Translations under genes and position numbers: made by a program
DNA from: a virus
Virus record (IMG/VR): IMGVR_UViG_3300021602_000011
Location: 1 to 45,392 of that record
DNA: 45,392 bases
Reading direction: 5' to 3' (one strand)
The notes under the pieces: model-generated
Databases searched by the model: none
What the model was told of the DNA's origin: nothing
The model's input: the letters and a program-made list of their open reading frames with translations, nothing else
Shown: positions 1-31,731 of the stretch, one piece after another
How positions within the stretch are numbered: the first letter of the stretch is position 1
How the letters are laid out: each line of letters opens with the position of its first letter

Positions 1-126
1 GAAGTACTAAGCGAAAGAAGTAAGTTATGCCATTTGGACTACAAGACGAAGTTTTAGCTTCTTCACAAGGGTTTGGAGCGAGTGATGAAGTGTTGGTTCC
101 ATCGGCGGGAGGGCCTAGTGCTGTTC
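1..126. repeat. Left copy of the 126-bp terminal redundancy
   Basis: Bases 1-126 are identical to 45244-45369. The redundancy falls inside coding sequence (end of one ejection-protein gene and start of the giant gene), as expected when a circular or circularly permuted genome is written as a linear contig. It is too short for a typical podovirus terminal repeat and is more likely assembly overlap. The copies diverge at base 127, inside the first dispersed palindrome. Confidence 0.9.
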
Positions 127-3100
127 AATCTTTGAACAAGACTTCTCCGCTGAATCCTAAAGGGTTGACTCAGGAGCAACTTGACGCTGAGATTAGTAGA
201 GTGTTTGCTCCAGGGTCGGAGAAGAGTCCGAGCTATTTGCAGTATATGGCTCAACCGGATAATGTCAACAATCCGTTGAACTATCCGGGGATGTTGGTGC
301 GTGGAGTAGGAAAGGGGTTGTCGAAGATTCTTGGAACTCCTGAAGGTGCACCAATGCTTCCTGATTTAAGTCAGTTGAATCCAGTACAGGATGCCGCACC
401 GGGAGCAGTTCAGGATTGGTTGAAGTATCAAGGGAAGACTATTGATACCATAAAGGGGTTTATGCCTGATGCAGTTAGACAGGCAACAGGAGGAGTGACT
501 AGTAGTGCGGCAAGACAGTTGTCTGAGTTATCCACTCCTGAGAATGTAGCTCTTGCTGGGTTAACTGCAGGAGCTGGAGTGGCTGGAGAAGGTGCAGCAC
601 ATGCTGTGTCTAAAGCAATTATTTCGTATTTCCTTCCGAAGATAGTTGGAGAGCAGATTCCACAGACACTAGGAGATATAAGTGGAAGAGGGAATCAACC
701 AGTGGAAGAACCTGTACGAACTGCGTTTAAGGATATTACTGATGTGGTTGGGCCAGTTGTGTTTAGCGAAATGATGCGTAGGGGGTTAGGTGATAAACCA
801 GTTCAAGGAAGCGGGTTGACTAGGCAGGACCTTATTCAACCTAGGTCGATTGCGGATTTACCAATTCCAAAGTCGGAAGCACCAGTTAGACATCCCTTGG
901 ATTTATCAGGTCAACCTCTTCTGCTTCCCCAGTTTGCAGGTGAGACTGTTCCTAGACAAACAAGATTTGTTGCTCCTAGTGATCATCCTCCAGTTGATTT
1001 GAGTCAGCTTAGTCCAATGGAACAGGCGGAGTTGCGGAGGAGTGTGTTTAAGTACACTCCTAGAGAGACTAGACCAATGCAGCAGCCGCCGGTGATTCTA
1101 GGACAGCAGCCAGATGTAGCACAACAGGTGCTCACTCCTGAGATGGTTAATCCGATGACTAGGACTGAGCCTGCTTCGTTGGTTGTACCTGAGTTGGCAA
1201 GTAAACCAATACTTAATCCTGAAGGTGGGAAGATTAGTTTTAGTTCACCAGCAGAAGCCAAGGCTATTCCGAACGCGCTACAATCGGCGGTTGAACCGAA
1301 GATTCAGACTTATCACAGTGGCGCGCCTATTAACCCTGAGGACCTTAGTGCAGCGTGGGAAGGTGCTAAGGAAGTTGCGAGGAGTTTAGGACTAGAAGCA
1401 AAGGTGTTTCCTGTTTCAGTTCCGGGACAAGGTGAACATTGGCAGTTCACAGATAAAGATGGAAGGACTTTTTACACCAAAGCTGGAGCAAATCCAGTAG
1501 AAGTGCAAGATGCGTATGGTAAAAAGCTAGACGCGTTTAAACAAGGAGAAGGAGAACAAAATGCAAGAAGTAATGTCAAAGACCAGTCAAAAGTTCCAGT
1601 CCAAGAAGGACAAGAAGGGGAAGGCAAGGTATTCCAAGGGGCAAGCGGACAAGATGAGCAAGGTGCTGCACAAGGGAATGGGGTGCAAGTGCAAGGAGTG
1701 TCAGAAGGACAAGGATCAGGACGAGATGTAGACTATACAAAGTTAAGCCCAGAACAGAAGCAGGAGTACGGAAAGCTCAACTCTAGACTTTTTGAGACAC
1801 GCGAACGTCAATGGAAAAATCCAAGTGATGAAGCAAATAATAAGTTGATTGACGCGGAGTTGGCTATGCGGAAGTTTGAGAAGAGTGTGAATAGTCCTAC
1901 TCAACACTACTTCTCCGGTCCAGGTCTTCTTCCTGAAGATTCTGCTAAGGTTCTTGAGATGGCTAAGAAACTTGCAGGAGATGCAAAGGACTTATCTCCG
2001 TTTCTGGACGAAGCAAGGAGAGTTGTAGGAGTGGCAAATAGGGAGAAGGAACTTCGGGGAGATACGTTTGCATTGTCTGGACCTAGGATTGCTATGAGTG
2101 AAAGTGGGTTTAAGAATATAGGACAGAAGGTAGATGCAAAGCAGCTTAGTGGTAGGATTCAGAATGTGTTGAAGCAAAGAGCACCTGCGGAACAGAAGAT
2201 TTATGAGGATGCGGGAGTGTGGAAACAGATTGAAGGGATGGGGAAGGTTAGTCCAGAGGAAGTTGCGAGGGTGATGCAGGAGGCTGGACCGCAGACGAAG
2301 GTGGAGACGTATGGCATGGAAGGGAAGGTGAGTGAGGCGAGGAGGGAGTATGATAAGATGACGCATGAGTGGAACGAGCAACAACCCATAGCAATACGTC
2401 AGTATATCAAAGATGCAATCGATGGAACAAGGACTATAGATGAACTAGAAAACTACATAAAAAACCATCCCTCAAAGGGGACTATGTATACTAACAGGGC
2501 GACGCCTGAGTGGCTGGCTGAAGCTAGAAAGTACGTAGAACTGGGACGTAAAGCAGTAATGGAAAAACACACTGGAGCTGGCCCCCGCGCTACCTCTGCC
2601 TACTCCGACAAAGGTAGTAGAGTAGCTGCCCTCTCATCAGAAGAACCAATGCCTGAGTGGACGACGTCGAAGAGTGGTAAGAATGTGCAGAGAGTGGATG
2701 TGGTGATACCAGAAAAGATAAATAAAGACTGGACACTAAAGAATGGTGCATGGGTAAATGAAAAAACTGGAGAAGTAAGAACTGGCAGGCAGTATAACCA
2801 AGATCAGCAAATAACTAAACCACTCTGGCAACCCGACAAACTCCACGAAAACCTCCCCAACACTCTCGGATGGGCGATGATACAGTATAAAACTGGACCG
2901 AAGGGTGAGAAGATAGCGGTGATAGCAGAGGCACAGAGTAGGTGGGGGCAGGAACATCGTAAGCAACTAGACCAAATCAAGGTAGAAAATAAACCTGCAA
3001 CCTTCGGGGATGAAACTAAACCGTGGGCAGTCTCTCACCAAAATCGAACTGGCTTCGGCGGTAGCGGTGAACGCGCAACCTCACGCTTCGCAACAGAACA

Positions 3101-6100
3101 AGAAGCGCAACAGTATGCGAATACGCTCAGACAAAAAATGAGTGACGCTACTGGCCACCCCCTCCTCCGCGACTACAACCGTCTCATCCTCAAAGCCGCA
3201 ATAGAACAAGCACGCAAAGAAGGTGCGACGCGTATCGTGGTGAGTGATGCAGAGACAGCGATGATGACGGAGGGGCATGATGTACGAGCAGCTAACCCTG
3301 CGACCATAAAGTATGAAGAACTATCTAACGGTAAGATAAAAGCTACTGATGACGCCACGGGTGAAACTAAAATCTTCGACTCATACGAAGCTGCCGATGA
3401 GTGGAAACCACGTATATCCCAAGAACCCGGTATGCGTCTCAACTACGACACCATCCTGCCCAAAATAGCAGAAGAACTCACAGGGAGTAAGGGTGAGAGG
3501 GTGAGTCTTGGGGAGCATAAGAATACGTTTAGCGATATACAAACAAGGTATGACGAAGCCGGTGATACGATACCTGGTCAGCGTGAACCGCGTTCCAACC
3601 TCATCTTCCGCAACCCTAATGGTACTCCCAAGACCGACGTCTCTGGTCTAATGTACAAACTTCCCTCTCGCGACCAAGCTGCGAGTTTATTCGAGAAAGA
3701 CAAGAAAACCCCTGAAGGAAAATCACAGATTCAATATCGTTTCAGTGGTGCTGGACCTCTCCCAGAAGATGTGAGTAAACTCAAAGACACTCTCGACAAA
3801 GCCTATAAAGACGCACGAGAAGGTGCAAGTGGACTTGTTGACAAAGTCTTTAACTACGGAGTTAAGCAATCTGGTGACGAACGTGGTCGAACCTTCCTGG
3901 CCAAACAACAAGGTTGGTCAGTTCCAAGGCATGTCACTGTCGCGGAGGAAACTGGCAATAAGCTTGTTCGTTTTGCGTCAGCAAGTGAAGCTGCTCCTGA
4001 GTTAGCCGATGCACTAGCTAGTGAAGTTCTTGGTAAGAAAGGGAATGATGTTGAGTTTGGGGAGAAGCTTGGTAAAACCCTAATCGAGAACCGCCTTCGT
4101 GCTTTGCAGGACTCGCATCTTAAAAAGGGTGAGATTGAACTCGCGGATAAAGTAACTCATGTTCTATCTGATGCAGACTATCGTAAGAACATGAGTGACC
4201 CTGAGATCAAAGCTGCACTCGATCAGCATAAAGCTCCAGGTGGAGTACAGGAGACTGCTGAGAAACAACATGCTGCGCTTGGTGGTACTATGGCAGCAAA
4301 AGGTGAGAATCAGTTGTTTGCGAATCTTACTGCAATCACCAAAGGGAAGAATTTTGAACAAGCGCGTGATTGGGTTTATGGAAAGGGGAATGTTAATACT
4401 CAGTCTATTCTTCGCGGTTCAACGTTTGAGCATAAAGCACTTGGAGTAGCTGAGGATTATGTGTCGAACTATCGAGACATTGCCAAAAGGATGATTACTG
4501 GGAATTATAAGCGTAACGCTCTTCGGGATTGGTTGGATCAAGGGGTGAAGGATGGGGTTTACCAGTGGGCAAAACGTGGAGAGGACGCTCCAGTAATGCG
4601 TGGACAACCTATGGTGAGATTTCCAGTTGAGGTTAAAGCAACTCCTTGGGGGTCGAAAGCGGTGAAGGATGTGTGGGTTAGAAAGGACCTTGCTCCTGAG
4701 TTTGAACAAGCACTGAATGGCGGAGGAAAGGTGGCAAAGGCAGGAGCGCAGTTGTTGTTGGATGCTGCAACAGAGTTGCAGTTGGTGGGTCCAACCGATT
4801 TCGTATTCCACACTGGCAATATGCTTGGGTCAATCATGGGGAGTCTTGGAGCTAAGTCGTTCACTCGTGATCTCGTTAGAAAAGTTGCTGGAGTTAAACA
4901 GTTGGACACTATCAATAGGGTTGGGTATCAACTCTATCGCACGATTGTTAACTCTCCTGAGGTGCAAAAGGAATTAGCAAGTCTTGCACAGATTGGGGCG
5001 ATGCGTCCACGGGCAAGCCATTCGTCGTTGCTTGGAAAGGCCACAGGAGGAGTGCTGGATACAGGCAAGTGGATTAGAACTTTGGATAGAGCAGGGCGTT
5101 TAGCTCGCAATGACATGTTTGATAATTTAGTCGAACGTGGACTAGTCGAGGATAATGAACTCAACCGCCGTGAGTTTGTAAACAAGATGGGACAGTACAA
5201 CGCTAAACTCATGTCCAGATTTCAAGACACGATGCAGAAGTATACTTCGCAGTTTGTAGTTGCTGGAAGAACGTTTAATCGAAACGCGTTTCAGAGACTT
5301 CTAATGTCGAATGAAGTGCGCGCAAGTAACCCTGAAGCCTATTGGAAGATGAAGTTTTTGAACATGGCTGGAGTTACGTCGACGTTGTTGGCTGTGCCTG
5401 TGCTTGTGAATCTATCGTTAACTGGAAAGCCTTTTGGAAGAGATGGGACTAAGCTTGGGTATATTGACACTGGTAAGGATACAAAGGATGGACGTCCTAT
5501 TGTGATTGACCCTGCTCAGTCTGAACTTCTACGGCGGGGGCTTAGAGCTACTGGTGCAGAAGCCGCATTTAGTGGTGCGCAAAATGGTGATAGTCTTGGA
5601 AAGACTGCTGCTTCAATGGCGGGTGCAATCATCAAGGGACAGATACATCCTTGGGCTGGACCTCCTTTGAAGATTGCTCAGACGTATATTGAAAAACAAG
5701 CTGAAACACATAATCCAGTTGAGGCGTTAAAGGCTGCTACTCTTGCAGTGAATCCAAGTGTTGCTGCGTATTTTGAAAAGGATGAGAGTGGTAATAAGGC
5801 TGGAGTGAAGGGAGTGTTTACTAGTCTTGGTGCAGTTTTAGGAGTTAAGAAAGGTGCGCCTTTAACACACCAGCAACGAGTGGAAGCGACTGCGAAGACT
5901 TATGGGTTGAATATGCAGAACTATGGGCAGAGACTAGACGCTGAAGAGAAGTATCGAGCAGCACGTCCGGCTATGACTAGGGAGGATGAGACTCGCGCAG
6001 CACAGTCGGCTATTCGTAGGAATGCTGATAGAGGAATTGCGTTACAGAAGTCTCTTCCCAGTGAGATGCAGTCTTGGCTGGATAAGAATAGTTTGAAACT

Positions 6101-6353
6101 TCCAGCGCATTCTGATCGTATCTCAGATGCAGGACAAACGCTCACTCTTACCAAGGAAGAACTTCCTCGTTTTGAGGAGCTTCTCAAGAAGGAATACCTC
6201 TCGGAGATTAAAGGTCTTCAAGGAGCGTGGTTCGACTCTATGGAGCAACGTGAGAAGGAAAAGATGTTCAAAGAAACTCTTGCACACGCAGCTAAGGAAG
6301 CGCGTATGGATATGAGTGATGAACTATACTCCAAAGGAAAGAAGAAGAAATAA
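27..6353 (+). CDS. Giant polyvalent / ejection (internal virion) protein, 2108 aa
   Basis: This probably is the large internal virion protein that enters the host with the DNA. It is the last gene of the late operon, directly after three small ejection-protein genes across the circle junction. Visible parts: a hydrophobic Ala/Gly segment near residues 175-215; Pro/Gln-rich linkers to about 400; a Gln/Gly-rich stretch near 505-570; two copies of a motif like YFSGPGLLPED, near 628 and 1237, each followed by an alpha-helical segment; a domain starting near 947 (GWAMIQYK, AEAQSRWGQEHRKQ, then IVVSDAETAMMTEG near 1075) that resembles the domain of large phage polyvalent proteins; and hydrophobic helices near 1583 and 1780. 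The C-terminus is Lys-rich. Residues about 33-40 (VQSLNKTS) are encoded by a dispersed palindrome. Codons around nucleotides 2400-3700 are richer in C than the flanks, suggesting a mosaic. No catalytic triad is evident. Confidence 0.8.
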   Translation: MPFGLQDEVLASSQGFGASDEVLVPSAGGPSAVQSLNKTSPLNPKGLTQEQLDAEISRVFAPGSEKSPSYLQYMAQPDNVNNPLNYPGMLVRGVGKGLSKILGTPEGAPMLPDLSQLNPVQDAAPGAVQDWLKYQGKTIDTIKGFMPDAVRQATGGVTSSAARQLSELSTPENVALAGLTAGAGVAGEGAAHAVSKAIISYFLPKIVGEQIPQTLGDISGRGNQPVEEPVRTAFKDITDVVGPVVFSEMMRRGLGDKPVQGSGLTRQDLIQPRSIADLPIPKSEAPVRHPLDLSGQPLLLPQFAGETVPRQTRFVAPSDHPPVDLSQLSPMEQAELRRSVFKYTPRETRPMQQPPVILGQQPDVAQQVLTPEMVNPMTRTEPASLVVPELASKPILNPEGGKISFSSPAEAKAIPNALQSAVEPKIQTYHSGAPINPEDLSAAWEGAKEVARSLGLEAKVFPVSVPGQGEHWQFTDKDGRTFYTKAGANPVEVQDAYGKKLDAFKQGEGEQNARSNVKDQSKVPVQEGQEGEGKVFQGASGQDEQGAAQGNGVQVQGVSEGQGSGRDVDYTKLSPEQKQEYGKLNSRLFETRERQWKNPSDEANNKLIDAELAMRKFEKSVNSPTQHYFSGPGLLPEDSAKVLEMAKKLAGDAKDLSPFLDEARRVVGVANREKELRGDTFALSGPRIAMSESGFKNIGQKVDAKQLSGRIQNVLKQRAPAEQKIYEDAGVWKQIEGMGKVSPEEVARVMQEAGPQTKVETYGMEGKVSEARREYDKMTHEWNEQQPIAIRQYIKDAIDGTRTIDELENYIKNHPSKGTMYTNRATPEWLAEARKYVELGRKAVMEKHTGAGPRATSAYSDKGSRVAALSSEEPMPEWTTSKSGKNVQRVDVVIPEKINKDWTLKNGAWVNEKTGEVRTGRQYNQDQQITKPLWQPDKLHENLPNTLGWAMIQYKTGPKGEKIAVIAEAQSRWGQEHRKQLDQIKVENKPATFGDETKPWAVSHQNRTGFGGSGERATSRFATEQEAQQYANTLRQKMSDATGHPLLRDYNRLILKAAIEQARKEGATRIVVSDAETAMMTEGHDVRAANPATIKYEELSNGKIKATDDATGETKIFDSYEAADEWKPRISQEPGMRLNYDTILPKIAEELTGSKGERVSLGEHKNTFSDIQTRYDEAGDTIPGQREPRSNLIFRNPNGTPKTDVSGLMYKLPSRDQAASLFEKDKKTPEGKSQIQYRFSGAGPLPEDVSKLKDTLDKAYKDAREGASGLVDKVFNYGVKQSGDERGRTFLAKQQGWSVPRHVTVAEETGNKLVRFASASEAAPELADALASEVLGKKGNDVEFGEKLGKTLIENRLRALQDSHLKKGEIELADKVTHVLSDADYRKNMSDPEIKAALDQHKAPGGVQETAEKQHAALGGTMAAKGENQLFANLTAITKGKNFEQARDWVYGKGNVNTQSILRGSTFEHKALGVAEDYVSNYRDIAKRMITGNYKRNALRDWLDQGVKDGVYQWAKRGEDAPVMRGQPMVRFPVEVKATPWGSKAVKDVWVRKDLAPEFEQALNGGGKVAKAGAQLLLDAATELQLVGPTDFVFHTGNMLGSIMGSLGAKSFTRDLVRKVAGVKQLDTINRVGYQLYRTIVNSPEVQKELASLAQIGAMRPRASHSSLLGKATGGVLDTGKWIRTLDRAGRLARNDMFDNLVERGLVEDNELNRREFVNKMGQYNAKLMSRFQDTMQKYTSQFVVAGRTFNRNAFQRLLMSNEVRASNPEAYWKMKFLNMAGVTSTLLAVPVLVNLSLTGKPFGRDGTKLGYIDTGKDTKDGRPIVIDPAQSELLRRGLRATGAEAAFSGAQNGDSLGKTAASMAGAIIKGQIHPWAGPPLKIAQTYIEKQAETHNPVEALKAATLAVNPSVAAYFEKDESGNKAGVKGVFTSLGAVLGVKKGAPLTHQQRVEATAKTYGLNMQNYGQRLDAEEKYRAARPAMTREDETRAAQSAIRRNADRGIALQKSLPSEMQSWLDKNSLKLPAHSDRISDAGQTLTLTKEELPRFEELLKKEYLSEIKGLQGAWFDSMEQREKEKMFKETLAHAAKEARMDMSDELYSKGKKKK
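118..142 (+). repeat. Dispersed palindrome copy 1 (intragenic)
   Basis: Arms GTGCT / AAGAC around the core GTTCAATCTTTGAAC (123-137). It lies in frame near the 5' end of the giant gene and encodes VQSLNKT. The right-hand end of the window diverges from this copy after its GTTC. Confidence 0.9.
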
Positions 6354-6378
6354 GTGGTGTTCAATAGTTGAACAAGAC
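6354..6378 (+). repeat. Dispersed palindrome copy 2 between convergent genes
   Basis: Arms GTGGT / AAGAC, core GTTCAATAGTTGAAC (6359-6373). It starts immediately after the TAA of the giant gene and its last base overlaps the stop codon of the minus-strand ATPase gene. It therefore is the entire gap between the two converging transcription arms, where a bidirectional terminator would be expected. Confidence 0.9.
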
Positions 6379-7598
6379 TATTTCTTCTTGGCTTGGATTT
6401 TACCTTCTTTAATCATTCGAGTGAATGTTTCCGCATTAGCTATACAAAGTTCAACTGCACCATTCAGCGCGTATTGAACCTCGAAGATTTGATCAGTCTC
6501 TTTGAAGAAACGTCTCGCGTTTGCGTATTCCATTTCTGATAGGTTCTTTCCAGCCTCTCTGTGCCACTTCTTCTCAGAGATTATACCTCCAGCTTCAATT
6601 AGGTGATCCATTAGTTGTTGTTGCGGGATTGCGAGTTCGTTGCGCCCTGCTGCGACAGTGAGCTTGGGAAGGTTGTCTTCGTTAGCTTCGAGAAAGGCTA
6701 TAGCTAGTTCAAGGAGTTCGGTGGTAAAGACTAGCTTAGGCTCTTCCTGTCCAACTGCAAGTAGCATGGCGATTTTCTGTGCGAGTATGTCCTTAGCTTC
6801 GTAGTATCCTTCGAGGATTTCGTCGTCTTGGTGAGGAAGTGCTTTGAACCATTGGTCTAGGAACTCACGGGCGGAAGGTTCCCATTGCATAGGGCCGACT
6901 AAGTCCTTTATCTTTTTAAGGTGTTCTTTGCACCAGAGTTCAGAAGCACGTGAGTCGTGGGATTTGTGTGGGAAGGTGATACGGTTGGGGCGTTCAGTTT
7001 CGTAAGCGTAGATCATACGACGGCTGAATCCCCCCGCGATAATGTTCATTTTGAGTTTCTCGATAAGCCACTTAGGAGTCTCACAGGCAAGGATGTTAAC
7101 GCAAGGGTGCAGGATAGGCTGGAGACCGTGTTTGATGGTATCTGCGTTGAATGCTTTGACGTCGTATATGTCCGTGAGGAAGTCCACCATACCCGAAGGA
7201 TTGATTGACATGAAGTTCTTTAATTCGTTGATGAAGAACGCTGTGGGTTTGAACTCGATCATGTTGCCGTTCTCGTCTTGGAATGCCCGAAGGCAGTCAT
7301 CGGAGCAGAGTCGTCCTACGATTTGTTCTCGGGACATCACAGATGCTCCGACAGGATAGTCAGGAAATACTTCCAAAAGCATATCCTTAGCGTTGTTCAT
7401 CGCAGAGGTCTTGCGAATACCTTGGCGACCAACTAAGGTTATATAAAGCATTGGATGGACGCGGAAATATGAATGGTCGACATAGATTCGCCTCCCCATT
7501 GTGCAGGACAACACCATCAACGCGCACCAACGATGGTAGCGTTTAGGTGACATGTTGCCTTGGTTATAGATTAGGTACTCTGTGATAAAGTCTTTCAT
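6378..7598 (-). CDS. DUF3987-like replication ATPase/helicase, 406 aa
   Basis: A P-loop ATPase, last gene of the early arm and directly downstream of the polymerase and homing-endonuclease genes. The Walker A site is LVGRQGIRKTSAM near residue 55, a GxxGxxKT/S form seen in DUF3987/primase-helicase-like phage proteins. A Walker B candidate is TAFFINELKNF near residue 118, and an arginine-finger candidate is GGFSRRMIY near 190. The all-helical C-terminal part may contain a winged helix (IEAGGIISEKKWHREA). The start ATG overlaps the upstream TGA (ATGA). The polymerase needs a replicative helicase and this is the best candidate; there is no recognisable primase motif. The family assignment is inferred from motifs only. 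Confidence 0.7.
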   Translation of the reverse strand: MKDFITEYLIYNQGNMSPKRYHRWCALMVLSCTMGRRIYVDHSYFRVHPMLYITLVGRQGIRKTSAMNNAKDMLLEVFPDYPVGASVMSREQIVGRLCSDDCLRAFQDENGNMIEFKPTAFFINELKNFMSINPSGMVDFLTDIYDVKAFNADTIKHGLQPILHPCVNILACETPKWLIEKLKMNIIAGGFSRRMIYAYETERPNRITFPHKSHDSRASELWCKEHLKKIKDLVGPMQWEPSAREFLDQWFKALPHQDDEILEGYYEAKDILAQKIAMLLAVGQEEPKLVFTTELLELAIAFLEANEDNLPKLTVAAGRNELAIPQQQLMDHLIEAGGIISEKKWHREAGKNLSEMEYANARRFFKETDQIFEVQYALNGAVELCIANAETFTRMIKEGKIQAKKK

Positions 7599-8071
7599 TG
7601 AGAGTCTTTATCAGGAAAGTTTAGAAACGCAAAATCACCAAACGCCTCTTTAGCTTTTTTATCGTAAACTAAAGCGGCTTCTTCTGCTGTAGTGTATAAA
7701 CCTAAATGAAACTTTGTTCCGTCTTTTTTGTTATAGGCTGCGTATTTATTTAGAATTTGATTAAAACTTACACCTTTATAACCTGTTGTATTGTTCGTCT
7801 GCCTTCTTCTGTTTGCGCAGTTTTCAGAACGCAAACATACTCTTAAATTGCTCTTTTGATTGTTCAATGGATTATGGTCTATGTGATCTATTTCCATTCC
7901 ATCTGGACACTCTAACAATAACCAGTGTATTTTTATTGACCTTATGCCTGTAACAGCATGTCCTCCATGAATTTGTAAGCGCCAGGATTTATAACGCATT
8001 ACATGATTATAGTCTTCATCATCGACTAAAGCGAAAATGTTATACTGATTTTTTAGTGGTATTTGTTTCAT
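7595..8071 (-). CDS. HNH homing endonuclease with AP2-type DNA-binding domain, 158 aa
   Basis: A free-standing homing endonuclease. Residues about 40-90 carry the HNH core (KIHWLLLE then MEIDHIDHNPLNNQKSNLRVC); residues about 95-150 match an AP2-like domain (TTGYKGVSFN, KFHLGLYTTAEEAALVYDKKAKEAFG). The gene is visibly more AT-rich than its neighbours and sits between polymerase and ATPase with 4-bp ATGA overlaps on both sides, so translation of the flanking genes stays coupled. Such endonucleases usually spread themselves by cutting homologous loci lacking the insert; they are not needed by the phage. Confidence 0.92.
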   Translation of the reverse strand: MKQIPLKNQYNIFALVDDEDYNHVMRYKSWRLQIHGGHAVTGIRSIKIHWLLLECPDGMEIDHIDHNPLNNQKSNLRVCLRSENCANRRRQTNNTTGYKGVSFNQILNKYAAYNKKDGTKFHLGLYTTAEEAALVYDKKAKEAFGDFAFLNFPDKDSQ

Positions 8072-11366: not shown

Positions 11367-12959
11367 TTAGTGGAACTCAAAGTCTGAGTTGAGTTTAAGG
11401 TAGTGCAAGATTTTAACATTCTCAAGCGCAGCATTGTAGTGAGATTTGTCTAGTTCAACTCCAATGACGTTGCGCTCAATACCAAGCATGGAGATGACAC
11501 CACTACCACGACCCATAAAAGGTTCAAGGATGAGTTGGCCTTTCATGGAAACTGCATTAGCGAGAAAGGTCCAAATCTCACGGGGTTTAGCAAAGGGGTG
11601 CCCAACGTCATTACAGAGTTGGTCTCGGCCACAGGTGATGACTGAGGTTTGTGGATTTTGCACTAGAGTTGCACCTTTCTTTCGACAGACAATAGCTATT
11701 TCGGTGTCTTTAGTGGTGTTGTATTGTGCACATTGGTTCATGCAAGAGGAAGTCTTGACCCAAGTGATCGGCCAACGTTGAACGGCAAACCCAGCTTTGA
11801 TGGCGCAGTCGTACATAAACTGCCAGAGCATTTGGTCTGCCCATGTGATGACAAAGGCCGAGGGTTTTGTGCATTTGAAAGCAGCAGGGAAGAAGTCTGA
11901 GATTAGTTGACGGTTGTACTCGACGTCGTGGAGGTCTTCGACGGTGTCAATATTCTTCATACCTCCATGTGGGTTTTGCTGATTCAGCCTACCCATGTCA
12001 ATCCCATAAGGAATATCCGTGATGACATGGTCGAATCTTCCTTGGTTCTCAAGTCGGTTCATAAACTCAATCGAATCCCCTTGGAAGAGTCTATTAGAAA
12101 GCATCACAACTTCCTTCTTTGAGACGAGTTCAACTTGTTCTTTCCAGTATTTATCAAAGTCTGCTTCTGTTCCTTTACCAGCGTTGAGAAAGTGTTGCAT
12201 GACTCGAAGATAAAGATGTGGGAACTCGGCAACCTCTAGGACATACTTCTTTCTTCCAAAGTACTGAAGTAGGTCACGAAGTTGTTGGTCGTAAGTTGCT
12301 TCTATCTCGGAGTCGGTTGGAAGAGTTGTGATAGTAGACTGCTCTTCAGTTACTTCCAGCACTGCATCAAACGTTGCCTCTGCTTGTCGAGAAGCTAGCG
12401 CTGCCATCAGTTCATCCTCACGATCACGAAGAAGAAGTTTCCACGCAGCGGTGAGGGAATCTTGTGACCAGAAGCGTGCGTTCTCTCTAGGAAGACCTGT
12501 TAGGATGTTGATTTCCGTTGAGAGCTTGCCAGCAACTTGTAGGTTGAAGTTGATATTTCCTACTGAGACTCCAAGCATTGCACCAGTCTCCCTTTGTCCC
12601 CATGACTTTGAATCTAGTGCGTTGGTTTTAACTTTAAGCCGGTGGATGGTTGCGATGTGGAGACATTTTTCCTGCCACGTCTCGTCTTTCCTTTGGACAT
12701 TCTCTTCGAGTTCGAGGATATGCAACTCGTCTTCAGACATAGTCTCTCGATATACAACGTCGATACTAATCCAACCAAGTGAACTTGCCGCAGCATAGCG
12801 ACGACCTCCGGCGATAAGTCGTTTGTCTTGGTTGATAACAATAGGCTGTATGAGGCCATTTGTTTTAAGCGATTGTGCAAGTTCAGCAATGTCTCCATTG
12901 TCGAGACGCTGACGATTGGTGACTTGGATTTCATTTAGAGGAAGAGTTTGACGATTCAT
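11367..12959 (-). CDS. ParB-N domain / DNA methyltransferase fusion, 530 aa
   Basis: Residues about 5-110 are a ParB/Srx-like N-terminal domain (LPLNEIQVTNRQRLDNGDI, GLIQPIVINQDKRLIAGGRR, DELHILELEENVQRKDETW), followed by a helical HTH-like segment near 130 (GQRETGAMLGVSVGNINF). The C-terminal half (about 290-525) is an amino-methyltransferase: catalytic motif IV VITDIPYG near 315 and SAM motif I LEPFMGRGSGVISML near 482, in the circularly ordered arrangement common in beta-class N4/N6 enzymes. This architecture is known from phages and plasmids. It may protect DNA from restriction; the ParB part could also guide it to specific sites, possibly the dispersed palindromes (inference). No partner restriction gene is nearby. 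Confidence 0.9.
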   Translation of the reverse strand: MNRQTLPLNEIQVTNRQRLDNGDIAELAQSLKTNGLIQPIVINQDKRLIAGGRRYAAASSLGWISIDVVYRETMSEDELHILELEENVQRKDETWQEKCLHIATIHRLKVKTNALDSKSWGQRETGAMLGVSVGNINFNLQVAGKLSTEINILTGLPRENARFWSQDSLTAAWKLLLRDREDELMAALASRQAEATFDAVLEVTEEQSTITTLPTDSEIEATYDQQLRDLLQYFGRKKYVLEVAEFPHLYLRVMQHFLNAGKGTEADFDKYWKEQVELVSKKEVVMLSNRLFQGDSIEFMNRLENQGRFDHVITDIPYGIDMGRLNQQNPHGGMKNIDTVEDLHDVEYNRQLISDFFPAAFKCTKPSAFVITWADQMLWQFMYDCAIKAGFAVQRWPITWVKTSSCMNQCAQYNTTKDTEIAIVCRKKGATLVQNPQTSVITCGRDQLCNDVGHPFAKPREIWTFLANAVSMKGQLILEPFMGRGSGVISMLGIERNVIGVELDKSHYNAALENVKILHYLKLNSDFEFH

Positions 12960-13334: not shown

Positions 13335-13718
13335 CTATTCTTGTGGCCATTTTCCAGTCTCTAGCATCTCGGCTATGACTGCGTAGTTCGCTATGTCTTT
13401 GAACGAGTCTCGGATGGATTCGTTGGCGGCCCGACGACGTCGACCAGAATTGAAGAGGTTCTTGATGCGCTCGAATTTGTCGTTCATGCGGACGACGACT
13501 CCGAAGATACCAAAACCTGAGATGTTTCGAGAGCCGTAGTCTAGTTGCTTCTGGTCGAGAAGTTTGATGTTCTCCAAGGTGATACGAAGTGCTTCTCGAC
13601 CAGCGATGGTTTTGATTTGAAGAGCAGTGCACATTTCCTCGAAGTAAGTTACAACTCTACCTCTATCTTTCTCCGACTCGGAGATTACGTAAAAGGTTTC
13701 AGGAACTAATTGTTTCAT
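13335..13718 (-). CDS. DUF1599-like protein (possible nucleotide-metabolism role), 127 aa
   Basis: The C-terminal two thirds match my memory of the DUF1599 pattern: LLDQKQLDYGSRNISGFG near 55-70, VVRMNDKFERIKNLF near 75-90, then ESIRDSFKDIANYAVIAEML near 100-120. Members occur in phages beside nucleotide or DNA-modification genes; the exact reaction is not established to my knowledge. Here it directly precedes a MazG-like gene, which supports a nucleotide-pool role. The start overlaps the upstream stop by ATGA. Confidence 0.8.
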   Translation of the reverse strand: MKQLVPETFYVISESEKDRGRVVTYFEEMCTALQIKTIAGREALRITLENIKLLDQKQLDYGSRNISGFGIFGVVVRMNDKFERIKNLFNSGRRRRAANESIRDSFKDIANYAVIAEMLETGKWPQE

Positions 13719-13939: not shown

Positions 13940-13947
13940 GGAGATTA

Positions 13948-13972
13948 GTCTTGTTCAATAATTGAACAGCAC
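13948..13972 (-). repeat. Dispersed palindrome copy 3
   Basis: Read on the minus strand the arms are GTGCT / AAGAC around core GTTCAATTATTGAAC. It lies between an early gene pair, just past a hairpin, and its outer arm forms part of that hairpin's base. Confidence 0.9.
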
Positions 13973-14524: not shown

Positions 14525-14558
14525 TTTCTTTTCTTTTGTTTTGTTGTTGTTTCTGTCT

Positions 14559-14578
14559 ATGGGTAGTGCTCCACCCAT
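14559..14578 (-). promoter_or_regulatory. Hairpin and A/C-rich leader before the gene starting at 14524
   Basis: ATGGGT and ACCCAT form a 6-bp stem with 8-nt loop. On the minus strand it is followed by an almost pure A/C/G leader (14525-14556 in complement) up to the start codon. The arrangement suggests a transcript start or processing site with SD-independent initiation. Confidence 0.4.
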
Positions 14579-17194: not shown

Positions 17195-18376
17195 TTATCC
17201 TTGTTGTTTGCTTTGACTAGGCTCGATAAGAGGTGTCCATTTGTTCTCTTGGAAGTTACCAGAGTGAAGTAGGATTCCACGTTGTTCAGATGGGAAGAGG
17301 CTACAGACATCGTAGTATGTGCACTTCCCGTATTTGGATACGCACCAACTAGTCTTCTTAGGGAAGTAGTCATTTTGGTAGTGCCAAAAGAACTCTTTGA
17401 TCAGCCCGATGGTGTTGCGATGCCATTCGTTTAGTTCCCCATCCGAGAGAAGATACTTTTCTCGTTGCAAACTCTCATCCCACCAACTTTCAGCAGTGGT
17501 AACCTTCCCAGTGCGACTAGAGGCTTTGCCTTCAGTGACATATTTAGGTGGTTCTTTGACGCGAATAGTGTTGACTTGGTATCCACGAACTTTTTGTCCA
17601 GTGAGCTGCTCAAATGACCAACAGTAGCCTTTTTGCTGTGCGGACATACGCATTTGTTCGTAAAATCCGTTACCAAGCATAGAGGTGGTCTTATGATCCA
17701 TCACAAAGAGTGAGCCGTCTAGGATGTGAGGAAGGTCGATTCGACCACAGTAGAGAACACGAATCTGCACCTTAGCAAAGCCGTCTCCTGAGTAGAAAAT
17801 CTGCTCGGCGGGAAAACCTTCCGCTAGTGCAGCTGTCGGAACTATCCCTTCCCACCAAAATAGATCAACTGTAAACGGAAGCTCCACCATCATCTTGCTT
17901 TGTCCAGTTTCTTCACAGAAGAAACATGGCTTGGATTCCTCTTCTCCAGTCTCGTTCAACTTTTGAACAGCACCTTTTCCTTTGCATTGGTGGCAAGGTT
18001 GGGGAGAGGTGTATTCAAGAACCTTGAAGTCCTCCTGCTGATATTTGTTATTATATCGACGGATGACTTCTAGTGCCCAGTTGTAGTTGCGGTAGTCTTC
18101 TACTGGACAAGGGTGAGTGGTGAAGTGGTCTTGGAGTAGCTCTGCGACATTGGACATATAAAGAGGGTCAGTTGGTCCATTGCCACAGGTTTTATACCGT
18201 AGCTCCATCGCAAGGTGGATTGCAGAGCCGAAGTTAAGACTTGGACTCTCCGAGGAACTAATCCTACGATGGAGTTTGTTGTATTCAAGTTGTCTAGGGC
18301 AGGTTGTGAGCAGCTCTAGCATCGAGTTGTCGACTAGAAGTGCACCGTCAATGAGGGGGAGGGGTGGTAGGTTCAT
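17195..18376 (-). CDS. PD-(D/E)XK nuclease, Cas4/RecB-like, with embedded zinc hairpin, 393 aa
   Basis: Motifs of the family are in order: LTTCPRQLEY near 28, FGSAIHLAMELRY near 50 (GxxxH type), GRIDLPHILDGSLFVMDHKTT near 211-230 (catalytic D...DxK), and a C-terminal Cys motif KYGKCTYYDVC near 350. These suggest an exonuclease, possibly with an FeS or Zn site, that makes ssDNA for the Sak4-like ATPase. Between residues about 127 and 160 lies a DnaJ-like zinc hairpin CHQCKGKG ... CFFCEETG; its loop is encoded by dispersed palindrome copy 4 (AVQKLNET). The A/C leader ACAAAAACAAATGAACC is shared with the gene starting at 19443. Confidence 0.85.
   Translation of the reverse strand: MNLPPLPLIDGALLVDNSMLELLTTCPRQLEYNKLHRRISSSESPSLNFGSAIHLAMELRYKTCGNGPTDPLYMSNVAELLQDHFTTHPCPVEDYRNYNWALEVIRRYNNKYQQEDFKVLEYTSPQPCHQCKGKGAVQKLNETGEEESKPCFFCEETGQSKMMVELPFTVDLFWWEGIVPTAALAEGFPAEQIFYSGDGFAKVQIRVLYCGRIDLPHILDGSLFVMDHKTTSMLGNGFYEQMRMSAQQKGYCWSFEQLTGQKVRGYQVNTIRVKEPPKYVTEGKASSRTGKVTTAESWWDESLQREKYLLSDGELNEWHRNTIGLIKEFFWHYQNDYFPKKTSWCVSKYGKCTYYDVCSLFPSEQRGILLHSGNFQENKWTPLIEPSQSKQQG
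17949..17973 (-). repeat. Dispersed palindrome copy 4 (intragenic)
   Basis: On the minus strand: arms GTGCT / GAGAC around core GTTCAAAAGTTGAAC. It is in frame inside the nuclease gene, exactly between the two CxxC pairs of the zinc hairpin. One arm base departs from consensus. Confidence 0.88.
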
Positions 18377-20392: not shown

Positions 20393-20614
20393 TTAAAACC
20401 TTTCAAAAACCTTCATAGTCTGCTTAAGACTCTTTTTACGACTAATACGTCGTTTGATACTCACAGCAGCGCGAACGAAGGAGTTGGTTGTGAGTCGTCC
20501 TTCTTTTTGGTATTGTGCAATGCGACGATTCGTGAGTGGACCGTAGAATTGATTGGTCCAAACAGAGGATTGGGTGACGTAATTTGCACGAGGTTTCATT
20601 GAGATCGTGGGCAT
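20393..20614 (-). CDS. Hypothetical basic protein, 73 aa
   Basis: A very basic protein (RANYVTQSSVWTNQFYGPLT, NRRIAQYQKEGRLTTNSFVR, SIKRRISRKKSLKQTM), likely to bind nucleic acid. The ATG overlaps the TAA of the gene before it (TAATG), which sets the start, although an in-frame ATG lies five codons later. No family known. Confidence 0.6.
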   Translation of the reverse strand: MPTISMKPRANYVTQSSVWTNQFYGPLTNRRIAQYQKEGRLTTNSFVRAAVSIKRRISRKKSLKQTMKVFERF

Positions 20615-21177
20615 TAAAAGGTCTCCTTGTCTTTGACGATTAAGTCACTGGTGACTGGGTCAATTGGAATGGTGAGAGAGTTGCCTGAGAGTTCAAGAGT
20701 CGTCGGCGGTTGAACCTCGACACTAGATGATTCAGCCGTCGAATCTGGTACTAGCACTTCTTCTTTTGGACAAACAATCCTCTTCCTTTTTTCTACTCTA
20801 GCAGGGACTAGAACTTCTTCTTCGACAATCCGGCAACTTGGTGGAGGTGGGACTTGTGCTGCAATGATTTTGAAGCCAGTTCTAAAGTTTTCTGGAATTG
20901 CAATCTCTTGTTCGTATCGAATTTTGTCAGGATAAAAGTCTTCAACCTTTTTATCCCATTTTCCACCAAAGATTTGAATGAAGACCATAAGTTTATCTCG
21001 GTCAAGATTACGTGCGATAATTTGGTCTATGTCGACCTCGACATCAATCTCAGCTTCATGTAAAGCGTTTAATTCAGCTTCAAACTTCGCACAAAGCCAA
21101 CCTATGCGAAATCCGTCACGTTCTAGGTAAGAAACGTCGCAATTTCTGTCTTTTGGATAGTATTCAGATGCTTTCAT
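20614..21177 (-). CDS. Hypothetical acidic protein, 187 aa
   Basis: The N-terminal 110 residues look folded (DGFRIGWLCAKFEAELNALH, DVDIDQIIARNLDRDKLMVF, IQIFGGKWDKKVEDFYPD). The rest is extended and contains two EEVLVP repeats (near 120 and 140) around a basic patch KRKRIVCPK. The start follows dispersed palindrome copy 5 by a few bases. No family recognised. Confidence 0.65.
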   Translation of the reverse strand: MKASEYYPKDRNCDVSYLERDGFRIGWLCAKFEAELNALHEAEIDVEVDIDQIIARNLDRDKLMVFIQIFGGKWDKKVEDFYPDKIRYEQEIAIPENFRTGFKIIAAQVPPPPSCRIVEEEVLVPARVEKRKRIVCPKEEVLVPDSTAESSSVEVQPPTTLELSGNSLTIPIDPVTSDLIVKDKETF

Positions 21178-21185
21178 ATTCTTAG

Positions 21186-21210
21186 GTTCTGTTCAATCTT
21201 TGAACAAGAC
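21186..21210. repeat. Dispersed palindrome copy 5
   Basis: Plus-strand arms GTTCT / AAGAC around core GTTCAATCTTTGAAC (21191-21205), the same core as copy 1. It lies 4 bp past the stop of the gene ending at 21215 and 8 bp before the start of the gene at 21177. Confidence 0.9.
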
Positions 21211-23238: not shown

Positions 23239-23375
23239 CTAGAGATAGCTTCTCACAAGGCCTTCTAAAGCGCAAGGAGAGATTATAGATTTAATTCGCA
23301 TCAAAGGAGCCAATTGGCATGGCGATTGCTTCGGAAGGCTTGGCATAAAACTTGCTACTACTTAATCAGTTCCAA
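23239..23375. other. Gene-free spacer next to palindrome copy 6
   Basis: About 140 bases with no supported gene. It holds GCATCAAAGG, a GGCGATTGC word and TTGGCAT repeats, all variants of words frequent in the 24-26 kb non-coding region. Confidence 0.5.
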
Positions 23376-23400
23376 GTCTTGTTCAACTATTGAACAAGAC
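23376..23400. repeat. Dispersed palindrome copy 6 (fully symmetric)
   Basis: The only copy with perfect outer arms, GTCTT / AAGAC, around core GTTCAACTATTGAAC. Two more pairing bases on each side make a 13-bp stem (23374-23402), followed on the plus strand by TTTCTTC, so this copy could act as a rho-independent terminator. It lies 7 bp past the stop of the gene at 23408. Confidence 0.92.
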
Positions 23401-23407
23401 TTTTTCT

Positions 23408-23989
23408 TCAATCTTTGTAAATCCACACTTGCATCTTAGCATTAGGACTCCAGTCAACATCATCGTCTTTGATGTCAGGACGGACTTGCTTGATGAGTTT
23501 ACTAATCTCTTCCCGCTGAGTGTCTAGGTCATACGCAATTCCAACCTTACTCCCATCCTTAGTTGCATAATCAAAGTCCAACAAAAACTGAATCAACTTA
23601 CCTTTATTATTACTATGCGGAACTGTTTCCTTTTCCATCTGCTGAACTGTTGCAGCAACCATGTTCGAGACGAGCACTTTTCCTCCTGCAAGTTCCTGTA
23701 CCTTGATAACTTTGAGGTCATACCCACGAGGAATTAGTTCACTAGGATATTTGTATCTACGAAAACCCAACAAAGCGTCTTCAAATCTCAGCTTAAAGGT
23801 TCTACTATTCATCCCACTTCCACCAATGACCTCTGCGATGTTTTCCATGTTCAAGACAAGACTTGGATTCTTAATCGCATGACCTATTAGTTTCTCAAAC
23901 CTTCTACACTGAGGTTCTCTAAGCTCAAACCTTGGTAGGGTTTCAAGATTGCTATTGCTATTGCTGAACTCTGTTGTGACTTCACTCAT
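23408..23989 (-). CDS. Hypothetical early protein, 193 aa
   Basis: After a Ser/Asn-rich start (EFSNSNSNLETLPR) the protein seems folded: FELREPQCRRFEKLIGHAIK, TFKLRFEDALLGFRRYKYPS, YDLKVIKVQELAGGKVLVSN, then KGKLIQFLLDFDYATKDGSK. The layout resembles a small DNA-binding or regulatory protein, but no HTH can be pinned. Its place as the first full-size gene beyond the repeat-rich control region makes an early regulator attractive (inference). Confidence 0.65.
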   Translation of the reverse strand: MSEVTTEFSNSNSNLETLPRFELREPQCRRFEKLIGHAIKNPSLVLNMENIAEVIGGSGMNSRTFKLRFEDALLGFRRYKYPSELIPRGYDLKVIKVQELAGGKVLVSNMVAATVQQMEKETVPHSNNKGKLIQFLLDFDYATKDGSKVGIAYDLDTQREEISKLIKQVRPDIKDDDVDWSPNAKMQVWIYKD

Positions 23990-24470
23990 ATATGTCTAGC
24001 TTTCGTTGGCGGGAAAGCTCAATTGGGTTTTAGCCATCAAGCCATCAAAGCATCAAAGCTGCTTTCCATCCTTCTAAAGAATAGCATAACCCACTCCTTG
24101 TCGTCAATGCCCATCAAATGATTCTTCTTTGCTAGGCTAACCTTTCTTCGCAATTCCATCATTCTTCTATGGGTGGGTGGGTTAGACATGTATAGCCTAA
24201 CTCACGGTCCCCCCTATGCCTAGCCTATCCTAGCCTATTCGACTCCATCATTTGATGCTTTCGCTTGACTATAACGTTTTAAATTTTTTTTTTTTTACAA
24301 GGTATAGGAGAGAGAGTCTAGGTGTGCTGACAAGGGCATCAAATGCGCCTAGAGAGAATAGAGGCCTAGAGAATAGGCGGGCAGGGGGGACTATGTGAGT
24401 TATACCACCTATGCACAACGCATCCACGATGCTAGGGGAAGCTAGGGGAATGATGCTTTTGCTTCTAGGA

Positions 24471-24495
24471 GTCTTGTTCAACTATTGAACCGCAC
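24471..24495 (-). repeat. Dispersed palindrome copy 7
   Basis: On the minus strand: arms GTGCG / AAGAC around core GTTCAATAGTTGAAC. It lies just past the terminator-like hairpin that follows the gene ending at 24557, like copy 3. Confidence 0.9.
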
Positions 24496-24811: not shown

Positions 24812-24860
24812 ACCACTTTTCTCTTTCTATTTTTTCCAGACCCTTAATTGAGCCTAGACC

Positions 24861-25906: not shown

Positions 25907-26098
25907 ATGAGTGAAAGTGCATATGAGGTAAACGCAGTAGCCCCATTGGATGGGAATGGGAGGGAGAGTAGTCAACTGGAGAGGTTGATTAGCGCACAAC
26001 CGTTGGGGGAGGGAAGGGGTGTAGGGTTTAGGGTGTGGACTGGGAAAGAGAAAGAGAAAGAGAACGAGAAAGTGGAGGGAGGAGTTGTATGCCAGTAG
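25907..26098 (+). CDS. Hypothetical small protein before the terminase, 63 aa
   Basis: Start set at ATG 25907 (MSESAYEVNAVAPLDGN), preceded by AGGGG. The end is a Lys/Glu repeat (KEKEKENEKVEGG) made by purine-rich DNA. It overlaps the terminase small-subunit start by 10 bp, an overlap typical of phage late operons. Function unknown; it could also be an artefact of the leader. Confidence 0.45.
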   Translation: MSESAYEVNAVAPLDGNGRESSQLERLISAQPLGEGRGVGFRVWTGKEKEKENEKVEGGVVCQ

Positions 26099-26760
26099 GA
26101 GGGTTTGACATACGGGAGTTGGTGGAGAAGGCGAAGAGTGGGCTTGCGGAGGTGGGACAAGTGGCCTTCGTTCCTAAGACCCCAGAGGAAGCTGGGCTAG
26201 AGCAGTTCTGTTCAAACATTGAACAAGACCCCAGCGAGCCTGCGATGCCCTCAGTGGAGGAGGATTCGACGGCTGCGTTTCCGGACACTGAAGCTTTCTT
26301 TGGACAAAGAAGTCCATCGTATCTGCTACAAGAGGAAAAACCCCAACACAGAGTGATTTGTTATCTAGCCGCTGAGGGGAATACTCGGAATGAGATTGCA
26401 GAGAAGACTGGGTTTAGTGCAGTTCAAGTCGGGTATGTGTTGAAACAACCTTGGGCGACTAAGAGGATTGCGGATTTGATTCGACAACATGGTGGGGATC
26501 AGGTGGAGTACGCGTTGAAGGGCGCAGTATTGGATTGTGCGCAATTCCTTATTAGGACAGTTCGGGATCCTCAGTGTGATGTGAAGGTGAGAAGCTCTAA
26601 CGCTAAGGAGATTTTGGATCGAGTTTATGGACGGGCGCAGCAGGTTATGACACATCTCAACCTCAGCGCGGAAGACCTTTCAGATGGTGAGCTAGCCAAA
26701 GCAGTCCGAGGCTCTATGGTGGGAGCAGTGCAGAGCGAGACTGCTTCAGGTACAAACTAG
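26089..26760 (+). CDS. terS: Terminase small subunit, 223 aa
   Basis: Start set at ATG 26089 with a strong GGAGGGAGGAG site a few bases upstream. Residues 1-80 are linker-like and include dispersed palindrome copy 8 near residues 40-47 (SNIEQDP). A helix-turn-helix follows (NTRNEIAEKTGFSAVQVGYV near residue 100), then a helical oligomerisation part (FLIRTVRDPQCDVKVRSSNA, KEILDRVYGRAQQVMTHLNL). It binds the packaging site and hands DNA to the large subunit encoded next. The function is inferred from HTH and neighbour. Confidence 0.8.
   Translation: MPVGGFDIRELVEKAKSGLAEVGQVAFVPKTPEEAGLEQFCSNIEQDPSEPAMPSVEEDSTAAFPDTEAFFGQRSPSYLLQEEKPQHRVICYLAAEGNTRNEIAEKTGFSAVQVGYVLKQPWATKRIADLIRQHGGDQVEYALKGAVLDCAQFLIRTVRDPQCDVKVRSSNAKEILDRVYGRAQQVMTHLNLSAEDLSDGELAKAVRGSMVGAVQSETASGTN
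26205..26229 (+). repeat. Dispersed palindrome copy 8 (intragenic)
   Basis: Arms GTTCT / AAGAC around core GTTCAAACATTGAAC (26210-26224). It lies inside the terminase small-subunit gene in a different reading frame from the other intragenic copies, giving CSNIEQD. Confidence 0.9.
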
Positions 26761-26796
26761 GAAAACAATCACTTACTTCTTTACTTCCTTCCTAGT

Positions 26797-28422: not shown

Positions 28423-28424
28423 AA

Positions 28425-30617: not shown

Positions 30618-30624
30618 AAACGTT

Positions 30625-31731
30625 ATGCCAAGTGCAACCGAATCTGACGAAATAGTGGAGTCGTCAACCACAGGAGAAGTAGACGTTAACAAAGAAGCAG
30701 TTTCGTCAACTGCGGAAGAAGGGAAAAGTGCTGCTGCGTCTAAGGTGACGAAAACCCTTGAAGATGTCGTACAGAGTGTCTTCAAATCGCAATCGTCCGG
30801 CGAGAAAGAGGAAGCAGAGAGTGGTGTTCAAAGTTTGAACAAGACCTCAGAAAAGAAAGAAGGAGAAGAGACTAAGGAGGAAGAAGTGGATGCCTCGGAG
30901 TCTCAGGATAAGAAGGGTGAAAAGGTTGAGGAAGAGAAGAAGAAGGAAGAGGACAAAGGTCCAATTCCTTATGCAAGGTTCGAAGAGGTTAACAAGGTTA
31001 AGGTGGAGCTAGAACAGCAGTTCGAACAGCTCAAGCCACTTCTTGAAGCACAGCAGAGCGTTATTGACCATTGCACAAAGCATAATATATCCGAACAGCA
31101 GTTCTACTACTGGATGGATGTTGCTGCGATGGTTAATAGTGATCCTGCCAAGGCGATGGAAACGCTTAAGCCGATTCTGGGCCAGTTGCAAGGTTTCTCG
31201 GGGGACATTCTCCCGCAAGATTTGCAAGAGTTAGTGGACAATAACGAGATTCCACTTGCTGTTGCGAAGAGACTAGTCGCTGCTGAGAGTCGCGAGAAGT
31301 TTGGACAAGGCAAAGCTAAGATGACTGAGCAGCAGATGCAGGCTCAACGTCATCAGCAGTTTGTGTCTGAGTTAACTAATTCGATGAACTCTTGGCTTGG
31401 AAGTCAAAAGACTTCTGATCCAGACTTTCAGCCTAAGAAAGGTGAAAGTGAACCAGATGGAAAGTTTGAATTCTTCTTGCATAAGTTTAAGGCTGAGGCA
31501 GAGGTGGTTAAACCAAAAAACGCTCAGGAGCTTGTTGCTCTTGCGGATAAGGTTAAGACTAGTCTTGGTTCAGCCTTCGAACGAATGTTTCCCAAAGCCA
31601 AAGCTACCCGGACTATTCACTCCAGTCGATCAACCACAAGTGGGAATGGTGCTCCCAAGACATTGGAAGAAGCAATCGAACAACAAGCCGCTAAGAACGG
31701 TATTGCTTTTACCGCACCAAAAAGGAAGTAA
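30625..31731 (+). CDS. Capsid scaffolding protein, 368 aa
   Basis: Placed between portal and coat, it has the composition of scaffolds: a Glu/Ser/Thr/Lys-rich disordered N-terminus (to about 120), then coiled-coil helices (RFEEVNKVKVELEQQFEQLK near 125-145, and AKMTEQQMQAQRHQQFVSEL near 225) and a basic Ser/Lys-rich C-terminus that may bind coat. Dispersed palindrome copy 9 falls in the disordered part (VQSLNKTS near residue 70). The assignment rests on position and composition, since scaffolds have little sequence conservation. Confidence 0.78.
   Translation: MPSATESDEIVESSTTGEVDVNKEAVSSTAEEGKSAAASKVTKTLEDVVQSVFKSQSSGEKEEAESGVQSLNKTSEKKEGEETKEEEVDASESQDKKGEKVEEEKKKEEDKGPIPYARFEEVNKVKVELEQQFEQLKPLLEAQQSVIDHCTKHNISEQQFYYWMDVAAMVNSDPAKAMETLKPILGQLQGFSGDILPQDLQELVDNNEIPLAVAKRLVAAESREKFGQGKAKMTEQQMQAQRHQQFVSELTNSMNSWLGSQKTSDPDFQPKKGESEPDGKFEFFLHKFKAEAEVVKPKNAQELVALADKVKTSLGSAFERMFPKAKATRTIHSSRSTTSGNGAPKTLEEAIEQQAAKNGIAFTAPKRK
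30821..30845 (+). repeat. Dispersed palindrome copy 9 (intragenic)
   Basis: Arms GTGGT / AAGAC around core GTTCAAAGTTTGAAC (30826-30840). In frame inside the scaffold gene, encoding VQSLNKTS as in the giant gene. Confidence 0.9.

Follow-up and report, generated by a model that had tools for sequence, protein, structure and literature searches.

Results

A dispersed palindrome and a candidate reader

We have studied a short palindrome that is repeated along the phage record IMGVR_UViG_3300021602_000011, the whole 45,392-base stretch of which is termed the window here, together with a phage-encoded protein that probably reads it. The window contains 11 near-perfect copies of 25-26 bp, with the consensus GTNNTGTTCAA-N3-TTGAACANNAC. 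The 17-bp core TGTTCAANNNTTGAACA, with up to three mismatches allowed, has 18 matches in the window where 4.0 are expected, a number reached by none of 100 shuffled sequences. Four copies lie within genes and seven between genes, often within a few bases of filling the junction (Table 1). The agreement among the copies is confined to about 26 bp, and there is neither a common flank nor a longer surrounding element. The candidate reader is a fusion of a ParB N-terminal domain with the CTPase fold, a helix-turn-helix (HTH) and an N6/N4 DNA methyltransferase.

Table 1. Palindrome copies and the proposed reader in the window. Counterparts are sites at the corresponding position in the related phage genomes named.
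Feature	Position	Strand	Context or basis
Palindrome copy 1	117..142		Giant protein gene (27-6353 +), residues 32-38; counterparts in G013, G045, G047
Palindrome copy 2	6353..6378		Occupies the whole convergent giant protein/primase junction; counterparts by same gene ends in G045, G046
Palindrome copy 3	13947..13972		Between 14027-14578 (-) and 13715-13939 (-); counterparts in G013, G045, G046, G047
Palindrome copy 4	17948..17973		Exonuclease gene (17195-18376 -), residues 136-142; loop missing in G045 homologue
Palindrome copy 5	21185..21210		Junction, upstream side of 20614-21177 (-)
Palindrome copy 6	23375..23400		Perfect 26-bp palindrome except centre; junction adjoining 23408-23989 (-)
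Palindrome copy 7	24470..24495		Flanked by small minus-strand ORFs
Palindrome copy 8	26204..26229		Small terminase gene (26035-26760 +), residues 59-64; counterparts in G045, G046 terminases, with other peptides
Palindrome copy 9	30820..30845		Scaffold gene (30625-31731 +), residues 67-73; counterparts in G045, G047 scaffolds
Palindrome copy 10	34798..34823		Junction of 34064-34798 (+) and 34850-35566 (+)
Palindrome copy 11	39777..39802		6 bp 5' of gene 39805-41154 (+)
ParB-HTH-methyltransferase fusion, 530 aa, proposed palindrome reader	11367..12959	-	Profiles, fold match, covariation
ParB N-terminal CTPase-fold domain, residues 13-89	12693..12923	-	GLIQPIVI, AGGRR, EENVQRK boxes
Helical region with ParB-type HTH, residues ~95-150	12510..12677	-	Noc/ParB profile alignment, predicted helices, half-site covariation
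N6/N4 DNA methyltransferase domain, residues ~290-516	11412..12092	-	Motif IV = DIPY

A weak extra match to the core, GGTTCAACGTTTGAGCA at 4416-4432 in the giant gene, has two mismatches and lacks the GT/AC flanks; it is excluded from the 11 copies and included in the 12 used for the motif. The ends of the record (1-133 and 45244-45392) repeat each other with 98% identity. The right-hand end diverges within the palindrome of copy 1, reading TGTTC and then CTCCTTTATGGAACGTTTAGTTC, a tail found nowhere else in the window; this is either an assembly end or a strain variant at copy 1.

The fusion protein resembles Noc and ParB

The window protein matches PF02195 (1.8e-12) and scores above the cut-off for TIGR00180. 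Its N-terminal part matches profiles of Noc (1.5e-21) and ParB (1.8e-21), and that of KorB weakly; all three alignments span the CTPase fold, and those to Noc and ParB extend through the HTH. An AlphaFold2 model (mean pLDDT 84) has ParB-type helices, at residues 95-115, 122-129 and 133-148 in the HTH region, followed by a methyltransferase fold. Foldseek matched the ParB part to Noc and the methyltransferase part to M1.HpyAVI and CcrM. The nucleotide boxes are intact; in the available text of Kaljevic et al. (2025), relatives of the ParB-CTPase fold are described as binding CTP, ATP or GTP (PMC12704722). No ParA-type ATPase was found in the window record by a search for PF13614. Close to the fusion gene, a DUF1599 protein (nucleotide modification associated domain 1; 13335-13718, minus strand) hints at base modification.

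The palindrome and the fusion protein occur together

An exact-core scan of IMG/VR gave matches in many records, including several full phages with 5 to 15 dispersed copies, each with its own flanks. The palindrome-bearing phages have a common replication module of primase, family A polymerase, exonuclease, Sak4-like ATPase and DUF669 protein, and this module includes a protein that joins a ParB N-terminal domain to an N6/N4 methyltransferase. The Desulfofustis phage OP947158 carries nine copies of a palindrome of its own, GCTATGTCCCAA-N-TTGGGACATAGC, and one gene annotated as ParB-like. Loci encoding ParB-methyltransferases were gathered blind to palindromes, and the full contigs were then searched for any repeated palindrome against first-order Markov nulls. 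Most of these contigs have a phage-specific palindrome in 5 to 23 copies, mostly with an odd centre, the half-sites including GATTCAA, TGCCCAA, GGTTACA, CGATCAA, TGTCCCA, TGGTTAA, GATTAAA, GTTTAAA and CGTAAAA among others. A subsequent profile search located a complete ParB-HTH region in each of these palindrome-bearing contigs.

An orphan ParB, made up of CTPase fold and HTH and joined to an N6/N4 methyltransferase, is encoded by all 28 phages that have both a compiled palindrome and an available ParB region. We set the threshold for co-occurrence at a palindrome count at least two above the null maximum. A dispersed palindrome was then present in 23 of 28 records with the ParB and HTH (with or without the methyltransferase), compared with 2 of 13 that lack the protein or have a divergent form of it (Fisher p = 8e-5). 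One genome, G074, was chosen as a control without ParB and had 14 palindromes; a later profile search revealed the ParB protein. Repeated palindromes also occur in every one of the four GTDB loci that reach 20 kb and match the full ParB-HTH profile. No palindromes were found in PaP2 and Kuura, which have related replication genes and lack ParB, and sites are absent from phages similar in large terminase or capsid, which are distant. The Vibrio phage VS-ABTNL-3 (L169) and MW202489 (L170) encode divergent ParB_N-methyltransferases and have a few even-centred palindromes (CAATCG-N6 and GGTTTAC-N6), which may be the sites of those proteins.

The site varies with the HTH

Across the 28 genomes the distance between palindrome motifs correlates with the distance between HTH sequences (r = 0.46). 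The association persists when the methyltransferase is held constant (partial Mantel r = 0.35, p = 0.0005); that between motif and methyltransferase disappears when the HTH is held constant (r = 0.009, p = 0.45). Given the HTH, no covariation is added by the polymerase, the exonuclease, the Sak4-like protein or either terminase, and the small terminase, considered as a reader, was rejected on this ground. Among the families tested, only the ParB fusion, the polymerase and the exonuclease are present in all 28 genomes. An insert that precedes the HTH also varies with the outer bases of the site: PDAxG goes with CT, PGP with AG, and the window's clade with GT. This pattern supports the covariation statistics and is only suggestive because the groups are also phylogenetic. 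From these sequence comparisons we strongly infer that the ParB/HTH part of the fusion reads the palindrome, and that site and reader change together between phages.

The same data bear on two other views of the site. The palindrome might be the target of the fused methyltransferase, acting as an epigenetic switch at each site; the attachment of a methyltransferase to the reader and the position of sites near gene starts would suit this. We regard it as improbable, since the motif varies widely among phages with similar methyltransferase domains, and the domain does not explain motif distance once the HTH is accounted for. Moreover, solved relatives of this methyltransferase recognise short sequences.

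Still less probable is that the sites are operators or stoperators of an unrelated repressor or activator. The layout, with many sites dispersed in short junctions, does resemble that of the stoperators of cluster A mycobacteriophages. Stoperators are asymmetric, lie in one orientation with respect to transcription and are bound by the immunity repressor; the window site is near-palindromic. Pfam revealed no HTH regulator or repressor among the nine small proteins of unknown function that were scanned. No other tested family fits the covariation, and the related phages that lack ParB also lack palindromes. The host SOS box was considered as well; the variation of the motif from phage to phage speaks against a host factor.

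The sites are spread as DNA elements

In most genomes the sites are spaced more evenly than random (coefficient of variation 0.48 against 0.88 in the window), with a combined p = 3e-16 over genomes that are related and records that are not independent. Their density is about one per 4 kb. With open reading frames (ORFs) taken as at least 70 codons for amino acids, only 81 of the 271 sites are contained entirely in ORFs, where 243 are expected, and 190 are outside, where 28 are expected. The site-bearing junctions comprise 80 and 67 that are co-directional, 19 convergent and 20 divergent, proportions that match the background. At the conserved arm positions there are 165 one-sided changes and a single change that keeps pairing.

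The even spacing, the use of all types of junction and the one-sided changes together indicate that these are sites in DNA and not RNA hairpins. A terminator, a device protecting mRNA ends or a translational control element might have been expected from a palindrome close to gene ends and starts, with a Shine-Dalgarno-like flank in several relatives. However, the scarcity of pair-keeping changes, the lack of any Rfam match to the palindrome, and the presence of sites within genes and in convergent junctions make an RNA function extremely unlikely. The three-nucleotide centre also prompted us to consider hairpin promoters of the kind used by the N4-type phage RNA polymerase. These seem unlikely, as the sites lack a conserved centre and are too near to start codons; the giant protein (2108 amino acids), which bears on this idea, had no match whatever in Pfam.

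The main rival explanation concerns the use of the sites by the same protein. The ParB fusion might read them as a transcription regulator akin to KorB, with the methyltransferase secondary or inactive. KorB, a clamp of the ParB family, has dispersed operators and can silence promoters as far as 1.5 kb from them (PMC11790492). Many junction sites lie about 10-15 bp 5' of start codons, and motif IV of the methyltransferase is altered in some members. On the other hand, a promoter operator should favour divergent junctions and shun convergent ones, while a device for coverage would be indifferent; the sites use both types equally, at the background proportion. Sites also occur within genes and operons, their spacing is even, and no KorA-like partner was found, although no systematic search for one was made. 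On balance regulation of this kind seems unlikely, if clearly less so than the other alternatives.

Sites keep their place while their letters change

Homologous genes of diverged relatives have a site at the corresponding position, each in the phage's own sequence (for example GATTCAA, GGTTACA or TGCCCAA). In each of four relatives, more positions near the same gene ends are shared than circular shifts yield (p = 0.019 to 0.047). The G013 counterpart of copy 11 is likewise 6 bp 5' of the homologous gene. The peptides encoded at these places differ. In the giant protein the site reads AVQSLNK in the window, PVQKLNK in G013, GIQTLNP in G045 and PLQNIT in G047; in the scaffold it reads GVQSLNK in the window, DSKIES in G045 and GLQKVT in G047; and in the small terminase CSNIEQ in the window, DSIVES in G045 and HAQNMGD in G046. 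Reading frames at the same place differ in the scaffold and terminase homologues. Since the site stays while letters, peptide and sometimes frame change, what is kept is the DNA site, and neither the protein nor an inserted copy. A palindrome also lies at the 5' end of the primase gene in G013, G045 and G047; the window has none there, and an HNH endonuclease gene (7595-8071, minus strand) occupies this primase-polymerase junction.

An earlier, sequence-only reading of the window had suggested that the palindrome is a mobile element resembling those of Rickettsia, inserted in frame into unrelated proteins. The four copies that it described within genes are real, as are the peptides they encode (AVQKLNE in the exonuclease), and these copies fall, as it stated, in variable segments where the protein tolerates them; it overlooked the seven copies that lie between genes. 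Three of the four are indeed in one frame; this is no more than chance would give (the probability that at least three of four share a frame is 10/16 = 0.63), and is unsurprising because the third frame of the core reads a TGA stop, leaving only two that are usable. Counted over nine phages that share this core, VQxLN is the frame in 17 cases, the other usable frame in three and the TGA frame in none. We give this count little weight because it includes orthologous sites and some short ORFs, and read the excess of the VQxLN frame as tolerance at the level of amino acids.

Insertion predicted a short gap in homologues at each intragenic copy. Such a gap is seen in the exonuclease, a CxxC-CxxC zinc-ribbon protein: relative to the G045 homologue (44% identical), the window protein has 13 extra residues exactly at the palindrome, in the loop between the two CxxC pairs. 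The length of this loop, which the palindrome occupies, differs widely among relatives. A local insertion or deletion here is likely, and does not make the palindrome a mobile element. No clean gap can be read in the giant protein, the scaffold or the small terminase, because the N-terminal stretches that contain or border the site fail to align.

The gap in the exonuclease and the location of copies in tolerant segments are what mobility would produce. Against it, diverged phages share positions at gene ends, with the sequence differing in concert from phage to phage and orthologous sites having different palindromes, peptides and sometimes frames; most copies are intergenic; and only about 26 bp is repeated, with no longer element around it. 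Homologues that keep the peptide without the palindrome had been named as the outcome that would count against insertion; we found the opposite, the site being kept as the peptide changes. An origin as a mobile element is thus scarcely credible.

Discussion

We consider it likely, from comparison of sequences, that the palindromes are nucleation sites, similar to parS and the Noc-binding sites (NBS), for a phage ParB that has no ParA and is fused to a DNA methyltransferase. The sites are DNA sites that are evenly spread; they have stayed by the same gene ends through long divergence, and they are accommodated in gene junctions or in variable segments of proteins. Following the pattern of ParB, Noc and KorB, a dimer would load at the palindrome, close on binding a nucleotide (CTP or another NTP), and the loaded clamp would slide away along the DNA. 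A dozen sites could in this way spread the fused methyltransferase over the entire phage genome. We infer that the fusion protein may slide and methylate. The even coverage suggests that the activity delivered, here presumably that of the methyltransferase domain, is needed all over the genome; the likely use would be the marking or protection of phage DNA, perhaps with transcription control or DNA organisation in addition. We propose that four copies are intragenic because long genes offer no junction within range, the copies then sitting in tolerant segments of the protein. More broadly, we propose tentatively that ParB sliding clamps serve a large group of phages in delivering a methyltransferase genome-wide from a dozen evenly spaced, self-specific sites.

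Several observations weigh against this interpretation. The Mantel tests are built on related phages and the correlations are modest, and the covariation with the site extends to the ParB N-terminal CTPase domain (partial r = 0.23, p = 0.01). A family of 129-amino acid proteins, present in 16 of the genomes, covaries there with the palindrome better than the HTH does. This uncharacterised family (L167:3945-4334, with homologues in about 27 records) was rejected as the reader: it does not occur in the window, G013 or G045-G048, and several of these genomes have sites. Four genomes (G048, G049, G053 and G054) have the protein and no detected palindrome, also when the search was restricted to intergenic sequence, and G057 is borderline. 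Conversely, G021 (L162-L163) has 12 copies of GGATCCA-N3-TGGATCC and no ParB fusion; this is either a different phenomenon or the site of a different reader. Most relatives have DPPY as motif IV of the methyltransferase. The window, G013 and G045 have DIPY instead, and G045 has a degenerate box III as well, so that catalysis or the use of nucleotide may have been lost in these proteins; in the Desulfofustis phage the motif is DFPY, and activity may differ. Lastly, the canonical C-terminal dimerisation domain of ParB is absent, with the methyltransferase in its place, so that dimerisation would have to come from other parts of the protein.

Nucleation at parS/NBS-like sites can be compared with known systems. 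Noc of Bacillus and Geobacillus is the best solved relative by profile and the best ParB-type fold match; its 16-bp NBS are scattered over the genome, and the Noc clamp nucleates there and spreads (PMC8429893). Noc differs in having no methyltransferase, in tethering DNA to the membrane and in acting on the host chromosome and not on a phage. The dispersed OB sites of KorB lie on a replicon of similar size, the 60-kb plasmid RK2. KorB is a ParB-family CTPase that acts at a distance from these operators by sliding (PMC11790492). Unlike the phage protein it is a repressor that works with KorA and lacks a methyltransferase, and its sequence match to the window protein is weaker. The chromosomal ParB system has CTPase boxes, an HTH and a palindromic site, parS (TGTTTCACGTGAAACA), which has the ends TGTT...AACA in common with the phage palindrome. 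It has in addition a cluster of parS near the origin, a ParA partner and a C-terminal dimerisation domain, none of which the window has. Rickettsia palindromic elements resemble the phage sites in lying within protein genes; they are much longer, mobile, in-frame insertions, whereas the phage sites are short, kept in position and mostly intergenic.

A further parallel is that of Kaljevic et al. (2025), who in the text available describe phage fusions of the ParB-CTPase fold with N6/N4 methyltransferases, the domain pairing of the window protein, enriched in phages and prophages and with their function left open (PMC12704722). The available part of that text describes no DNA sites for them, and the term 'palindrom' does not occur in the text (PMC12704722). 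We found no paper on palindromic sites of ParB-methyltransferase fusions in the open-access literature, preprints not being covered.

Fusions that were catalogued in 2025 without sites or function, as far as the available text shows (PMC12704722), are thus now supplied with candidate sites. Each of the 28 phages gains a predicted cognate site, with a binding code that may be legible from sequence, and binding, clamp loading and methylation directed in cis therefore become directly testable. A repeat that a simple reading would class as a mobile element is also explained, with the caution that short intragenic repeats in phages can be protein-binding sites kept at the cost of the encoded peptide. 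If delivery in cis is true, it would be a new viral means of distinguishing a phage's own DNA from that of its host: a self-recognition code in which each lineage has its own alphabet of sites, and only the DNA that carries them is modified.

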